Shown here piece by piece: positions 1-5,696 of a stretch of 5,829 nt of DNA. Position 1 is the stretch's first letter; each line of letters starts with the position of its first letter. The position numbers were made by a program, and so were the translations under genes. Origin of the DNA: a bacterium (GTDB lineage: Bacteria; UBA9089; CG2-30-40-21; SBAY01); contig JBFLYA010000234.1 of NCBI GenBank assembly GCA_040757115.1, positions 1 to 5,829 of the forward strand. The letters are read 5' to 3'. The notes beneath the pieces are model-generated. The model saw nothing but the letters and a program-made list of their open reading frames with translations. It was not told the origin of the DNA and did no database searches.

Positions 1-132
1 ATTTGTTGTTTTCCACAATCAATTTCTACCTATTTCTATAAATTTCAATCTATTTCTATTATCTTATCTCCATATCACTCTTATCTCCTTATCCCCTTTC
101 TTACACTTTTGATATATAGCCTGAACAGTTAC
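1..132 (+). repeat. 237-bp MITE-like element, copy A (right 132 bp; left part off window)
   Basis: This stretch matches positions 1045-1176 of the complete copy base for base, except for one change in the terminal repeat (CCTGAACAGTTAC here, CCTGAACGGTTAC there). The left 105 bp should lie outside the window. It ends at 132, two bases before the stem of the riboswitch terminator, so it appears to sit in the A-run (T-run of the leftward transcript) of that terminator. It has no coding capacity. If the 8-bp target duplication seen for copy B is the rule, the missing left flank should read AAAAAACC. Confidence 0.9.
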
Positions 133-931: not shown

Positions 932-939
932 AAAGTTTT

Positions 940-1176
940 GTAAGCGTTCAGGTGGTGTAACAAAAGGAGATGTGGAGATTAAGGAGATAGGGAGATATTA
1001 TTAAAAAAATTGAAATTAATAGAAACTAATAGAAATTTATGGAAATTTGTTGTTTTCCACAATCAATTTCTACCTATTTCTATAAATTTCAATCTATTTC
1101 TATTATCTTATCTCCATATCACTCTTATCTCCTTATCCCCTTTCTTACACTTTTGATATATAGCCTGAACGGTTAC
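940..1176 (+). mobile_element. 237-bp MITE-like element, copy B (complete, with target duplication)
   Basis: The element begins GTAAGCGTTCAGG and ends CCTGAACGGTTAC, 13-bp terminal inverted repeats with one mismatch. It is flanked by exact 8-bp direct repeats AAAGTTTT (932-939 and 1177-1184), the mark of transposition. The interior has no open frame of note. It is an imperfect foldback: purine-rich GGAGAT units on the left face their complements (ATCTCC) on the right. Between these lie arrays of GAAAT-type units spaced exactly 10 bp apart, in opposite orientation in the two halves. It appears identical to the reverse complement of 4853-5089. No transposase is encoded nearby, so it is presumably moved in trans. 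Confidence 0.93.
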
Positions 1177-1205
1177 AAAGTTTTGTAGTATTTCAATGGG
1201 TAATT

Positions 1206-1501
1206 ATGCTTACAAAGTTTATTGGATTATCACAGCCTACATTGCCAGAAGGCTGGCGGAAAGAGAAATCAATACGAAAAGATTTGTTTGAACTACCGCT
1301 CAAGGCAGATATGCATCTTGTGGGTCATAACCCATAATTGATCGTTAAGATAAGAATCTCAGGCAGGAAAGAGTCTATAGAGATGGCTCTGGCGCGTTGT
1401 ATCAGCTGTTTCATGTGAGGCAGGATTGCACGCAGGAGCCATTTGGACAAGATATTGTAGTGTTGAGTAAGTTTTGCACGGCGTATCATCAGATTTCATA
1501 A
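1206..1501 (+). pseudogene. Unrecognised decayed coding remnant (low confidence)
   Basis: No intact gene is seen between the repeat ending at 1176 and the palindrome starting at 1513. Two adjoining stretches read like protein. The first is a 43-codon frame from ATG 1206 to the stop at 1335-1337 (MLTKFIGLSQPTLPEGWRKE and on). The second is a frame open from 1349 to the stop at 1499-1501 without a start codon; it contains RVYRDGSGALYQLFHV and ends ILS-less in AYHQIS. They lie in different frames, so a frameshifted, interrupted gene is possible. I do not recognise a family. No ribosome binding site or promoter is evident. This may simply be noncoding. Confidence 0.2.
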
Positions 1502-1512
1502 CCTGCAAACGG

Positions 1513-1781
1513 ATAATTGGTAACTGGTAATTGGTTAAATAGTTTCGTCCTGAGCTCAGCCGGTAATTCCTCAGTTATCAGTGATAAAAACTAAATAGAA
1601 ATTTTCTCTCGCAAAGACGCAAAGTTCGCAAAGATTATAATTTATTCCTTTGCGTTCTTTGCGCCTTAGCGAGAAATTTAATCTTTATGCCTTTCTCCCA
1701 TCAATAACTGTCCGATTACCTCAGCCGAACGGTATTTAATTACCAGTTACCAATTACCAGTTACCAATCACCAGTTACCAG
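1513..1781. repeat. Nested palindromic repeat with heptamer-unit arms
   Basis: TAATTGGTAACTGGTAATT (1514-1532) and its exact complement AATTACCAGTTACCAATTA (1738-1756) form a 19-bp inverted repeat. Both arms are made of 7-bp units (GGTAACT/GGTAATT and TTACCAG/TTACCAA); the right side carries about six units to 1781. Further in, GGTAAT..CAGTTAT blocks (around 1562-1580 and 1703-1720) are imperfectly inverted. At the core is a hairpin of CGCAAAGA-type units (1600-1679). It has no coding capacity. The right arm runs straight into the truncated GxxExxY gene. Confidence 0.85.
1600..1679. repeat. Core hairpin of CGCAAAGA octamer units
   Basis: The left arm (1600-1633) holds TTTCTCTCGCAAAGACGCAA and on; the right arm (1648-1679) holds CTTTGCGTTCTTTGCGCC and GCGAGAAATTT. 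The arms are imperfectly complementary over about 32 bp around a 14-nt AT-rich loop. Units of CGCAAAG recur every 8-9 bp. I know this motif type from many environmental bacterial genomes. It is nested inside the heptamer palindrome. Confidence 0.85.
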
Positions 1782-1792
1782 AATCGAATTCC

Positions 1793-2128
1793 GTGCGTTA
1801 TTTGTTCAACACGACATTAGGACCTGGTTTTCTGGAGAGCATCTATCACAATGCCTTGAAGGTTGAGTTTGCAAGACAGAACATCATCTTTGAATCAGAA
1901 AAAGAAGTCAAGATATTCTATCAAGGTGTTGAGGTTGGGGTTCATAGACTTGATCTTTTTGTTGAAGATGAGATTGTGGTAGAGATTAAAACTGTTGAGG
2001 AGATAAGTGGGAAGTATTATAATCAGGTTAGAGCATACATTAGAGCAGTGGATAAAGAAATAGGGTTACTGGTAAATTTCGCAGACTCTAGGATTGATGT
2101 CCGAAGGCTAGAGCAAGAAAAAGTTTGA
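1793..2128 (+). CDS. GxxExxY family protein (PD-(D/E)XK nuclease-like), 5'-truncated
   Basis: The product matches the GxxExxY family, small proteins of the PD-(D/E)XK nuclease superfamily with no settled function. The signature LGPGFLESIYHNAL gives G-x-x-E-x-x-Y (G12-Y18). A core with the expected acidic residues follows: HRLDLFVEDEIVVEIKTVEE has the Asp of the second strand and the E-x-K pair. YNQVRAYIRA and GLLVNFADSRIDVRRL complete the usual C-terminus. Family members normally have about 15-25 more residues before LGPGF. Here the frame upstream is open to 1682 but holds no ATG and reads through TTACCAG repeat units, so the native 5' end has been replaced. GTG at 1793 is the only plausible start and has no ribosome binding site. 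It is probably a broken gene, though the catalytic core is intact. Confidence 0.8.
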   Translation: MRYLFNTTLGPGFLESIYHNALKVEFARQNIIFESEKEVKIFYQGVEVGVHRLDLFVEDEIVVEIKTVEEISGKYYNQVRAYIRAVDKEIGLLVNFADSRIDVRRLEQEKV

Positions 2129-2129
2129 G

Positions 2130-2201
2130 CCATTTCTCCAATTCTCCTTTTTCCCCATTTCTCCTTGTTTACACTTCTAATGTATAGCCCTGAACGGTTA
2201 C
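2130..2201 (+). repeat. Diverged right end of a 237-bp-type element
   Basis: The stretch ends TATAGCCCTGAACGGTTAC (terminal repeat 2189-2201), preceded by TTTACACTTCTAATG. This parallels TTACACTTTTGATATATAGCC of the intact copies. The part before it is CTCC/CCCC-rich, like their right arm, but differs in sequence. No left end is visible. It starts right after the GxxExxY stop codon. Confidence 0.7.
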
Positions 2202-2204
2202 CAG

Positions 2205-2270
2205 GTTGAATTATTACAAAGGATTAAAAATCAGTGTTTCATCCGTGTTTATCTGTGGCTGAATAATTAC
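2205..2270 (+). repeat. Partial CACGGAT-type repeat (right half)
   Basis: ATCAGTGTTTCATCCGTGTT and CTGTGGCTGAATAATTAC (to 2270) match the right half of the nested element at 4738-4777, with a few substitutions. The expected left half with CACGGAT units is missing. Instead GTTGAATTATTAC (2205-2217) looks like another end of the same kind. The fragment lies just upstream of comEC and may have replaced its native upstream region. Confidence 0.75.
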
Positions 2271-2296
2271 GCGTAGTTTCACTGGACATTGAACAA

Positions 2297-4627
2297 ATGA
2301 CTCCATTAACCCAACTTACTTGCTTCTATATCCTGGGCATAATAATTGGGAACTTCATCGATATTCCTCTTTTTATTATTTTTATCGGGATAACTATCAC
2401 TTTTCTCCTCACTTCCATCTTCTTTATAAAAAAATTCCATTTCCCAACCAATATCTTTCTCCTTTTAAGCATAATATCGATAGGAGTATTGCTTCATGAG
2501 GGACATTCAAGATTTTTGTATTCTAACTCCCTGAATAAGTATGTTGGACATAAAGTAGTTTTAATTGGCGATGTTGCACAACCAGTAGAAATAACCGAAG
2601 ATAGGATAAATTTAATTATCCATACAGAAAAAGTTATAACGGATAAGGTGCTAAAAGTCAATGGGCTTGTTTTAGTAAATATTAAAAAAGAAAAGAAATG
2701 TAAATTTGAGTATGGCGATAAAGTCCAATTCAGGGGTAAATTAAAATTGTCCACTGGACTGCGAAATCCTTGTGGATTTGATTACCAGAAATATTTAGCC
2801 CGAAAGAAAATACACATAGTTGTCTGGATTTATGAGCAGAAAGAGATTGTCAAATTAGGGCGAGGGAAATTTAATCCTATTTTTATGTTTGCCTACAAAA
2901 TCAGAGATAAGGCAAGCAGTGTCATTTATAAAATTTTACCTGATAAACCGTTTGCCTGCGCCTCTCTTTTAGATGGTGTTTTATTAGGAAAACGCTCCCA
3001 GTTACCTGATGAAGTTGAAGGTTGGTTCAGGGATACAGGAACAATTCATATCTTAGCCATATCTGGTTTCAATGTGGGATTAATTGGATTAATATTCTTT
3101 TTTATTTTTCATCGGTTGATTTGTTTGCCAAAACGCACATCGTCAATTTTTACGCTCTTTGTGCTCATTATTTTTGCTATTGTGACCGGGGCAAGTCCCT
3201 CGGTTGTCCGCGCCGTGATTATGGCTGGAACAATCATCATTGGTTTAATTATCGACCGGGAAACAAATATTTACCATAACCTCGCTTTAGCGGCATTACT
3301 TGTTTTATTACATAATCCCTTGACATTATTTGACATAGGATTCCAATTGTCTTTTGTTGCAGTTTTTAGTTTATTCTATTTTACCCCTTTTATTGAGCCA
3401 AAATTATGGTTTCTGCCAAAATATTTAGCCAAACTTATCGCTACCTCTGTTGCCGTCCAGATTGGTCTATCTCCTATCCTTATATTTTATTTTAATAAAC
3501 TATCATTAATCACTGTTTTAGCCAACATAATTGTTGTCCCGTTAGTCAGCATCATATTAATTCTTGGTCTGGCAATAGCCTTTATCGGAATGATATTCAT
3601 TCCGCTGGCTAATTTGATTGGCATAGCTACTTCCTACATCATTACAAGTTTGTTGGTCTGTGTCTTTTTCTTTGCCCGGATACCCTATGCTTATATTTAT
3701 CTTGCTACCCCAACCTTTTTCGATATTGGTAGTTATTACCTTATCTTATGGGCAATAACCAGGCATAAAAGGATTGGGACAACAAAGGTTATTATTGGGA
3801 TTTTAATCTTAATTAACATATTTTTATGGACCGGCGGGGTAGTAAAAAACTCATCCAGGATAATGAAGGTTACATTTCTGGATGTAGGTCAAGGAGATGC
3901 GATTTTCCTGGAGTTTCCTGAAGGCAGTAATATGCTCATAGATGGAGGACCATCGGGATTTTTTGATGCAGGCGAAAGGATTATTTTACCTTTCCTCACA
4001 AGTAAAGGGATATTAAATTTAGATGTCGTCATTGTCAGTCATAATGACATTGACCATTATGGTGGCTTATTGTCGGTACTCAAGAATTTTAAAGTCAGAA
4101 AGTTTGTTCTGAGTAATGGCATTGAAAACCAGGAATTATCCCGGATAATTAAAGAAAAAGGCATTTGTCATAAAGTGGTTAAAAGAGGTGACAAAATTAG
4201 CGGTTATCCAGGAATAGAAATTTATATCCTGCATCCTTCGGACATTATGGCTGAAAGTTCAGATAATAATAATTCAGTAGTAGTAAAAATATTGTTCAAT
4301 AAAATAAGTTTTTTGTTTGCAGGAGATATTGAAAAAGAAGCACAAAAAAAATTATTGCCTTTTAAAGAAATGCTTTCTGCAATGGTATTGAAAATACCTC
4401 ATCATGGAAGCAGAAATGCTTATTACTCAGAATTTATCACGGAAGTCAATCCAGAAATAGGCATAATACAGGTAGGTAGAGATAATAGATTTAATTTTCC
4501 CCATAAAGAAGTTATAGCAGGTTATGAAAAAATAGGAACTAAAATTTATCAAACAGATATTCATGGGGCGGTAACTGTTAAGACCGATGGGGAAAAAATT
4601 TGGGTAAAAACAATATATTTCCAGTAA
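2297..4627 (+). CDS. comEC: ComEC/Rec2 family DNA internalisation protein
   Basis: At 776 residues this is a full-length ComEC, the inner-membrane channel that brings single-stranded DNA into the cytoplasm during natural transformation. Residues 7-65 hold N-terminal membrane segments. Residues 70-185 are the soluble DUF4131/OB-like region. Residues 215-515 are the multi-pass Competence domain, with HILAISGFNVGLIG (251-264; many homologues have SGLH here) and GASPSVVRAVIMA (298-310). Residues 523-770 are a metallo-beta-lactamase-like domain with FLDVGQGD (527-534), HNDIDH (582-587, complete HxDxDH), FAGD (674-677) and PHHGS (701-705), so the metal site looks intact. No strong Shine-Dalgarno precedes the ATG, and repeats occupy the upstream 170 bp. 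The stop codon TAA lies within the terminal repeat of the element starting at 4624. No other competence gene is visible. Confidence 0.95.
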   Translation: MTPLTQLTCFYILGIIIGNFIDIPLFIIFIGITITFLLTSIFFIKKFHFPTNIFLLLSIISIGVLLHEGHSRFLYSNSLNKYVGHKVVLIGDVAQPVEITEDRINLIIHTEKVITDKVLKVNGLVLVNIKKEKKCKFEYGDKVQFRGKLKLSTGLRNPCGFDYQKYLARKKIHIVVWIYEQKEIVKLGRGKFNPIFMFAYKIRDKASSVIYKILPDKPFACASLLDGVLLGKRSQLPDEVEGWFRDTGTIHILAISGFNVGLIGLIFFFIFHRLICLPKRTSSIFTLFVLIIFAIVTGASPSVVRAVIMAGTIIIGLIIDRETNIYHNLALAALLVLLHNPLTLFDIGFQLSFVAVFSLFYFTPFIEPKLWFLPKYLAKLIATSVAVQIGLSPILIFYFNKLSLITVLANIIVVPLVSIILILGLAIAFIGMIFIPLANLIGIATSYIITSLLVCVFFFARIPYAYIYLATPTFFDIGSYYLILWAITRHKRIGTTKVIIGILILINIFLWTGGVVKNSSRIMKVTFLDVGQGDAIFLEFPEGSNMLIDGGPSGFFDAGERIILPFLTSKGILNLDVVIVSHNDIDHYGGLLSVLKNFKVRKFVLSNGIENQELSRIIKEKGICHKVVKRGDKISGYPGIEIYILHPSDIMAESSDNNNSVVVKILFNKISFLFAGDIEKEAQKKLLPFKEMLSAMVLKIPHHGSRNAYYSEFITEVNPEIGIIQVGRDNRFNFPHKEVIAGYEKIGTKIYQTDIHGAVTVKTDGEKIWVKTIYFQ

Positions 4628-4832
4628 CCGTTCAGGTGGTAACTTACCGCAGAGACGCAGAGGAACAGAGAAGACATAGAAATAAAGTAACTATTCAGCC
4701 ACTGATTAACACGGATTAGCACGGATAAAAAATAAAATCAGTGTTTCATCTGTGTCCATCTGTGGCTGAATAGTTATCAATAAATTTTAATTTTCTTCTC
4801 TGCGTCTCTGTGTCTCTGCGGTGAACGGTTAC
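4624..4832. repeat. 209-bp element with CGCAGAGA octamer arms, overlapping the comEC stop
   Basis: It begins GTAACCGTTCAGG (4624-4636) and ends GTGAACGGTTAC (4821-4832), giving an 11-bp perfect terminal inverted repeat. Inside, CCGCAGAGACGCAGAGG (4647-4663) faces CTCTGCGTCTCTGTGTCTCT (from 4798 to GCGG at 4821). The right arm carries one extra 8-bp unit. The left end GTTCAGGTGGT also matches the left end of the 237-bp element, so a chimera is possible. No target duplication is seen (TATTTCCA against CACTTATT). A second element is nested within it. Confidence 0.85.
4687..4777. repeat. 91-bp nested element with CACGGAT 10-bp units
   Basis: GTAACTATTCAGCCA (4687-4701) and TGGCTGAATAGTTAT (4763-4777) are inverted repeats with one terminal mismatch. 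The left arm has CACTGATTAA, CACGGATTAG and CACGGATAAA, a clean 10-bp period; the right arm carries the complement (CATCTGTGTC, CATCTGTGGC). AATAAA on both sides (4681-4686, 4779-4784) could be a short target duplication, but the surroundings are AT-rich. It lies inside the octamer element, so it may be the younger insertion. Confidence 0.85.
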
Positions 4833-4852
4833 CACTTATTAATCGAAATTTG

Positions 4853-5089
4853 GTAACCGTTCAGGCTATATATCAAAAGTGTAAGAAAGGGGATAAGGAG
4901 ATAAGAGTGATATGGAGATAAGATAATAGAAATAGATTGAAATTTATAGAAATAGGTAGAAATTGATTGTGGAAAACAACAAATTTCCATAAATTTCTAT
5001 TAGTTTCTATTAATTTCAATTTTTTTAATAATATCTCCCTATCTCCTTAATCTCCACATCTCCTTTTGTTACACCACCTGAACGCTTAC
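4853..5089 (-). mobile_element. 237-bp MITE-like element, copy C (complete, inverted)
   Basis: Read on the minus strand it begins GTAAGCGTTCAGG (5089) and ends CCTGAACGGTTAC (4853), the same length as copy B. By eye it shows no base difference from it over 237 bp. The flanks (GAAATTTG left, CTTTTTTC right) are not a target duplication, unlike copy B, so this copy may have arrived by recombination or lost one flank. Its left-type end is 8 bp beyond the stop of the convergent membrane-protein gene. With copy B it forms a perfect inverted pair enclosing about 3.7 kb that contains comEC. Confidence 0.93.
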
Positions 5090-5097
5090 CTTTTTTC

Positions 5098-5358
5098 TTA
5101 CTGGGCTTTGCTAAACTTATTGTATAACCAACCACATACCCAGAGGGTAATAAACCCATTTACAAACCCGTAGGCAAGACCAATGAGACTGCCAGGCCAA
5201 TTAACACAGTATCCAATGTAGAACTTGCCTAACAATTCAAGATGGTTACCTCCAGCAGGTGGCGGGGAGATAAGTAAAACCCAGATGGTGGCGATAAAAA
5301 CTGTTAGTCCCCATACGATACCGCCTGCTAATCCTAAGGCTACTTTATTTAGCTTCAT
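5098..5358 (-). CDS. Small holin-like two-segment membrane protein
   Basis: The 86-residue product has a hydrophobic segment at about 8-30 (LGLAGGIVWGLTVFIATIWV within it). A short loop follows with SPPPAGG and GKFYIGYCVNWPGSLIG, then a second segment at about 56-79 ending in WLYNKF. The GxxWG.....W, Y.GY....GSLIGL..GF..GF and WLYN pattern matches small proteins annotated as bacteriophage holin in many environmental bacteria. That name rests on family resemblance; no endolysin or phage gene is nearby, and the function is unproven. I chose the ATG at 5358 over the in-frame ATG at 5442. AGGAGGTG (5374-5367) lies 8 bp upstream, and the predicted transcript start near 5389 is downstream of 5442. 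It faces comEC tail to tail across a block of repeats and is divergent from alaS. Confidence 0.8.
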   Translation of the reverse strand: MKLNKVALGLAGGIVWGLTVFIATIWVLLISPPPAGGNHLELLGKFYIGYCVNWPGSLIGLAYGFVNGFITLWVCGWLYNKFSKAQ

Positions 5359-5395
5359 TTTTTTCTCACCTCCTTTTTGCGACTGCATCATTTTT

Positions 5396-5424
5396 ACATT
5401 ACCACAATTCTTCAATAATGTCAA
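5396..5424 (-). promoter_or_regulatory. Promoter of the holin-like gene
   Basis: On the minus strand there is a perfect -35 TTGACA (5424-5419), a 17-bp spacer and a weak -10 TAATGT (5401-5396) with TGG just before it. The start would be near 5389, leaving about 30 nt to the ATG and ruling out the longer reading frame. Confidence 0.6.
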
Positions 5425-5436
5425 CTTATTTTTTTC

Positions 5437-5465
5437 TTGCAATAATTTTATATGTGTGCTATACT
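5437..5465 (+). promoter_or_regulatory. Promoter of alaS
   Basis: -35 TTGCAA (5437-5442), a 17-bp spacer, and -10 TATACT (5460-5465) preceded by TGC, an extended -10. The start would be near 5472, so the alaS leader is about 225 nt. It is back to back with the holin-like promoter, the two -35 boxes 12 bp apart. Confidence 0.6.
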
Positions 5466-5490
5466 ACAAAGGAAGATGAAAATTAAGGGG

Positions 5491-5528
5491 CTCGGGACTC
5501 GGGAATAAAAGAATCCCCGAGTCCCGAG
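5491..5528. repeat. Perfect hairpin of CTCGGGA heptamer units in the alaS leader
   Basis: CTCGGGACTCGGG (5491-5503) and CCCGAGTCCCGAG (5516-5528) form a perfect 13-bp, GC-rich stem with a 12-nt loop. Both arms repeat a 7-bp unit, and one further TCCCGA unit follows to 5534. It stands out sharply from the AT-rich surroundings. Only TTTT follows it (5535-5538), so it is a poor terminator as written. It lies in the predicted alaS 5' leader. Confidence 0.85.
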
Positions 5529-5585
5529 TCCCGATTTTCAGGGGAAACGCTCATGAACCGTGGGTTCACAAACGAGGATGAAAAT

Positions 5586-5676
5586 AGTAGGTAGGAGATA
5601 GAAGGGGGGAAGGAGATAGGCGTGAGGAGTGATGTTTTCTTTACTTTCTACTTTCTACTCTCTACTTTCTACTTCC
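5586..5676. repeat. Purine block facing a TTTCTAC heptamer array, before alaS
   Basis: A purine-rich block (GTAGGTAGGAGATAGAAGG and on, to about 5630) is followed by the pyrimidine array TTTCTAC, TTTCTAC, TCTCTAC, TTTCTAC (5645-5672), a strict 7-bp period. The two halves are only loosely complementary. The array ends nine bases before the alaS ribosome binding site. Confidence 0.7.
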
Positions 5677-5696
5677 TTATTTTCAGGAGAGAATAA

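Follow-up and report, generated by a model that had tools for sequence, protein, structure and literature searches.

Miniature transposons with IS66-type ends, recently active and present in about 140 copies in a bacterial draft genome

RESULTS

Genes and repeats of the window

The window analysed here is a whole contig (C234) of 5,829 bp, belonging to a draft MAG genome of 4.3 Mb in 462 contigs. It carries comEC and a truncated gene for a GxxExxY protein, set among several repeated elements (Table 1). An earlier note, made from the sequence alone, had described two apparently identical 237-bp elements in inverted orientation around comEC, a third partial copy differing at one base, an 8-bp duplication around one copy and the absence of a transposase. 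All of these readings held: copies B and C aligned at 100% in opposite orientations, the single difference of copy A was recovered and sits in the terminal repeat (GTAACTGTTCAGG), copy B lies between two occurrences of the same 8-mer, and no transposase was recognised in the 5,829-bp window. The flanks of copy C are unrelated 8-mers with no target duplication, and this copy is absent from the comEC-alaS gap of the sister species (G005).

Other features were observed in the window. A HicA toxin-like gene (457-654) is followed by an unnamed 79-aa ORF (to 890) at the place where a HicB-type antitoxin would sit. A gene for a holin-like protein (5098-5442, minus strand; NF037947, just below the cut-off) adjoins copy C; the sister species lacks it and has an element end directly joined to the region upstream of alaS. 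More repeats and palindromes, made of short-period units (GGTAACTGGTAATTGG, CTCGGGACTCGGGA, TTCTACTTTCTACT), lie at 1503-1781, 5487-5532 and 5585-5690.

Table 1. Positions of the mobile-element features in the window
Feature	Positions	Strand	Remarks
Copy A of the 237-bp element	1-132	+	third copy, of which the contig start leaves only the right part; one difference
Target duplication of copy B, left	932-939	.	AAAGTTTT
Copy B of the 237-bp element	940-1176	+	100% identical to C and 27 other genomic copies
Target duplication of copy B, right	1177-1184	.	AAAGTTTT
GxxExxY cassette, right part	1793-2201	+	truncated GxxExxY gene, 1793-2128
Right IS66-type end of the cassette	2189-2201		GTAACCGTTCAGG read inward
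Second non-autonomous element	4624-4832	.	ends GTAACCGTTCAGG / GTAACCGTTCACC; arms of inverted CGCAGAGACGCAGAG tandem repeats
Tandem CRCRRAG arm of the second element	4646-4674	+	inverted partner 4794-4822
Nested element inside the second element	4687-4777		
Copy C of the 237-bp element	4853-5089	-	237/237 bp identical to B

Copy number and type of the element ends

The 13-mer at the end of the element, GTAANCGTTCAGG, has 526 occurrences in the genome (4.3 Mb), whereas the reversed control has one, so the repeats are not due to chance. The sister species has 483 occurrences of this 13-mer, and other genomes of the phylum between 0 and about 110. Counting the ends of the element itself genome-wide gave about 141 left and about 140 right ends, and in many contigs the element is interrupted by contig breaks. 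Identity was about 100% in 32 of the 39 copies sampled, against a difference of about 2% between the flanking DNA and that of the sister species.

The ends have the form GTAA[G/C]CGTTCAGG and are of the IS66 type, since ends starting with GTAA and 8-bp duplications are both traits of that family. Indeed, published IS66 ends read GTAAGCGTCCGG... / GTAAGCGTCCGGCG... and GTAACCGTCCGGGCA (PMC12888890), and 8-bp repeats are listed for IS66 members (PMC3281130). Being short, bounded by terminal inverted repeats (GTAAGCGTTCAGG/GTAACCGTTCAGG) and devoid of a transposase gene, the 237-bp element is a miniature inverted-repeat element (MITE), and it shares with this class also the target duplication and the many near-identical gene-less copies. 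It differs from typical MITEs in that about half of its intact copies have no duplication, and in that some of its sites hold other elements with the same ends in the sister species.

Target duplications and empty sites

The flanks of all exact element ends were read genome-wide. Among the 50 uninterrupted copies for which both flanks were read, 23 showed an exact 8-bp duplication, which is expected by chance in about 2e-4 per copy. Split copies served as an independent check: 22 of the 66 orphan left ends could be re-paired with an orphan right end by a shared 8-mer, against 0-1 pairs when the compared stretch was shifted. Intact and re-paired split copies thus agree on a target duplication of fixed length, 8 bp, and such shared duplications can be used for joining contigs broken inside repeats. 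The remaining 27 of the 50 uninterrupted copies have no duplication. Taken literally, this is the situation that the earlier note had named as contrary to its reading (most copies lacking duplications), while split-copy pairing and the sister-species comparison account for at least part of it. The lack of duplications is therefore explained, at least in part, without abandoning transposition.

For the comparison, about 0.97 Mb of this genome was set against 1.36 Mb of sister sequence. In the latter, two copies (C16:397-633 and C202:1246-1482) have clean empty sites, where one 8-mer stands alone and the element is lacking. A third such site matches a copy split between contigs C292 and C214, one of the pairs matched by their 8-mer, whose flanks are joined in the sister species by a single 8-mer without the element. 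Together with the duplications, the empty sites indicate that transposition of the element generates 8-bp duplications and has taken place since the two species split, provided that they reflect insertion and not precise loss; insertion is favoured because the filled sites carry the flanking duplication. The earlier note had left the choice between recent movement and gene conversion. Homogenisation of old insertions by gene conversion would also produce many copies that are almost perfectly identical, but the three clean single-8-mer sites in the sister species make it very improbable, and recent movement is the part of that proposal that stands.

Copies without a duplication

Only three of the 27 copies lacking a duplication (L016, L019 and L026) could be compared cleanly on both sides with the sister species. 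In each case one contig of the sister species holds both flanks, correctly ordered and a short distance apart, with another GTAA-ended element there at the identical nucleotide: a 241-bp element at L016 and a CGCAGAG element at L019, each in place of the 237-bp element. A comparable junction occurs at the 3' end of comEC, where ...TTTCCA|GTAACCGTTCAG is followed by a different element in each species. In the window (4611-4636), the TAA stop codon of comEC is provided by the GTAA tip of the adjoining element; this junction is conserved in the sister species, where the element is another one.

These sites suggest that copies without a duplication probably arose by insertion into or beside an older element, followed by deletion between the like ends; other such copies may derive from recombination between distant copies or from misassembly. 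Bacterial IS elements are known to recombine through their terminal repeats (PMC3004938).

Assembler chimeras within identical repeats, or homologous recombination between distant copies, could also have produced the copies without a duplication, an explanation that competes with the swap of junctions only and that we consider rather unlikely. Contigs often end within the element, and in a draft MAG some joins inside identical 237-bp repeats may be wrong. Furthermore, synteny with the sister species is lost precisely where the cassette ends (window 2201/2202). In the window, comEC is preceded by the cassette, copy B and the HicA-like gene; in the sister species, it is preceded by a sequence that we take to be rpoZ-like from our own reading of its translation. 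A few flanks of the copies without a duplication have an orphan counterpart elsewhere. Against this explanation, an exact mate was found for only 8 of 54 such flanks, and the ordered, closely spaced flanks of L016, L019 and L026, with another GTAA-ended element at the same nucleotide, also speak against it.

A transposase partner with the same ends

The earlier note had predicted a longer element with the same ends enclosing a transposase elsewhere in the genome. Such an element exists, as a single copy: C277:3061-4623 is a full IS66 element of 1,563 bp between GTAACCGTTCAGG and its inverse, with GTAA ends at both sides and without a target duplication. Its 472-residue TnpC matches Pfam DDE_Tnp_IS66 (PF03050) with an E value of 5.9e-39 over profile positions 3-282 of 284. 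The tnpC gene is interrupted by two in-frame stops (codons 229 and 350), which speak against this copy being active. Neither the five PF03050 matches in the genome nor the compared stretches of the sister species included an intact TnpC with these ends; an intact copy may be extinct or unassembled. The prediction is thus borne out as to the element, its transposase being broken, and it needs correction in that, in several related elements with these ends, a GxxExxY gene takes the place of a transposase.

The likeness to single-ORF (TnpC-only) members of the IS66 family lies in the GTAA-starting ends, the 8-bp duplications and the DDE_Tnp_IS66 transposase of the partner, while the 237-bp repeats themselves have no transposase and the sole partner copy seen is broken. 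The IS66 transposase gene contains an exact GTAAGCGTTCAGG (L076, 3441-3453).

Cassettes carrying GxxExxY genes

The GxxExxY family (TIGR04256) has 68 matches in the genome, 45 of them above the cut-off. Several of these genes lie in cassettes with the same ends as the 237-bp element and with exact 8-bp duplications: on contig C16, 496 bp containing GxxExxY lie between two copies of TTATACAC, and the cassettes on C7 and C144 are flanked by GATAGGTG and AATTTTTT, respectively. Three loci (L097, L100 and L102) combine, as mobile insertion cassettes (MICs) do, a GxxExxY passenger, IS ends and 8-bp duplications with the lack of a transposase. Passenger genes are known in IS66 elements (PMC12888890), and our cassettes resemble both MICs (no transposase) and tIS66 (transposase present) in having a passenger framed by ends of the IS type. 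Their difference is the passenger itself, a GxxExxY nuclease gene that elsewhere is framed by its own inverted arms.

A cassette in which GxxExxY is split by an inserted sequence occurs in three places, including the window, and in one of them it has the duplication AATTTTTT; the GxxExxY gene is thus not needed in cis. The insertion that breaks the gene in these three cassettes (seen at L102, within 1395-2098) carries ends of the TGTCGT type, with a CTAA repeat on either side.

The right ends of the 237-bp element and of the cassette are homologous for more than 50 bp past the 13-mer (alignment score 36, against a maximum of 26 in 300 shuffles). Past the 13-mer of the left ends, only a purine-rich pattern is in common, and homology is not clear. 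On this comparison, the 237-bp element looks like a gene-less relative of the GxxExxY cassettes, probably an internally deleted descendant.

Proposed mechanism of spread

We propose that an IS66-family TnpC recognises the GTAA[G/C]CGTTCAGG ends and moves the MITE in trans, duplicating 8 bp of AT-rich target on insertion. The MITE would have derived by internal deletion from a GxxExxY cassette with the same ends, a descent to which the right ends point and the left ends do not clearly. An element landing in or beside an older one could then lose the stretch between like ends, by recombination or by slippage across the 13-bp repeats, which would leave copies without a duplication. We give this reading as a whole a probability of about 0.8. 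That the mover was the TnpC lineage represented by the broken copy is what we infer. IS66-type ends have recently spread short repeats, nuclease cassettes and hairpins in this genome, with sites passing between elements.

The GxxExxY protein and its CRCRRAG-armed units

The GxxExxY protein of the window belongs to TIGR04256 / PF13366 PDDEXK_3 and is not a Y1 transposase of the kind found in RAYT/REP systems. The structure of a GxxExxY protein was predicted with confidence (pLDDT 95.5), and residues D67, E77 and K79 are invariant. The best fold matches of the model, all weak (E about 0.003-0.01), were PD-(D/E)XK nucleases, SSO0001 and lambda exonuclease; a sequence search returned no solved structures of GxxExxY relatives. 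The model thus suggests a nuclease-like protein of the PD-(D/E)XK kind.

Judging from its arms, the second non-autonomous element of the window looks like a GxxExxY unit without the gene. In 872 kb of this genome we counted 54 inverted CRCRRAG units, 20 with GxxExxY sequence and 34 without, and 23 of the 54 have IS66-type tips at both sides.

We also examined GxxExxY loci from 80 other genomes of many phyla, picked by similarity to one GxxExxY subfamily. Tandem CRCRRAG (ACCACAGAGACACAGAG, ACCACGAAGGACACGAAG etc.) lies directly upstream of GxxExxY in 58/80 loci, against 15/240 control genes, and the inverse array sits directly downstream; both arms are present in 48/80 loci, and the density of the motif elsewhere is 0.16 per kb. 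Within a locus, left and right arms match at 15.25 of 18 bases, compared with 10.7 when the pairing is shuffled (maximum 12.3) and 5.5 outside the arms. A motif-free test of inverted arms was positive in 52/77 against 21/384. By autocorrelation, generic tandem-repeat strength upstream of GxxExxY is only mildly raised; it is the specific motif that stands out. In an independent plasmid set, searched with the pre-set motif, at least one arm was found in 2/7 and a strong inverted pair in 2/7; being present in a minority there, the CRCRRAG arms characterise a GxxExxY subfamily.

Among the 80 loci of other phyla, none has IS66-type ends bounding the GxxExxY gene, and no target duplication was found directly outside the CRCRRAG arms. 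In two Bacteroidota loci (L121, 2266-2963; L123, 2266-2962), the element that carries GxxExxY is about 698 bp long, ends differently, in GCTACTCTTT, and is flanked by exact 8-bp duplications (TGCCCCCG and CCCGGGGA). No GxxExxY gene was confirmed in viral contigs.

Could the GxxExxY nuclease, and not an IS66 transposase, move the cassettes and the gene-less repeats, as a RAYT serves REP palindromes? The inverted arrays bounding GxxExxY genes across phyla, the excess of gene-less over gene-bearing units (34/54 in 872 kb of this genome), the conserved D-E-K residues and the confident PD-(D/E)XK-like model are all coherent with such a role. Conversely, the 8-bp duplications and GTAA ends indicate a DDE transposase of the IS66 kind, the units of other phyla have neither IS66-type ends nor duplications beside their arms, and a cassette with a broken GxxExxY gene has still spread, though help in trans is possible. 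We therefore regard this role as improbable and retain TnpC as the candidate mover. The units recall REP/REPIN and RAYT in pairing a small gene with palindromic repeats, in gene-bearing and gene-less forms; GxxExxY being of the PD-(D/E)XK type and not a Y1 (IS200-like) transposase, the likeness is an analogy only.

A broader reading, which we offer as tentative and somewhat less probable than its opposite, is that GxxExxY forms, across bacteria and some archaea, a compact unit (mostly 410-750 bp) in which a PD-(D/E)XK gene lies between subtype-matched inverted CRCRRAG arrays. Such a unit would be mobile or self-maintaining, with gene-less palindromic offspring, and in the lineage of the window it would have gained ends of the IS66 type and been dispersed in the form of cassettes and MITEs. 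From the arms found across phyla one would predict binding or cleavage of CRCRRAG arrays by the GxxExxY protein, and the findings link a widespread, uncharacterised family to mobile DNA. In the open literature (subscription papers being outside the search), we found no description of a CRCRRAG-framed GxxExxY unit, and mentions of GxxExxY were incidental only. On a Sphingomonas plasmid (L359, 1161-1626), a GxxExxY gene lies between fabD and fabG in the orientation of the operon, as if inserted into a fatty-acid operon.
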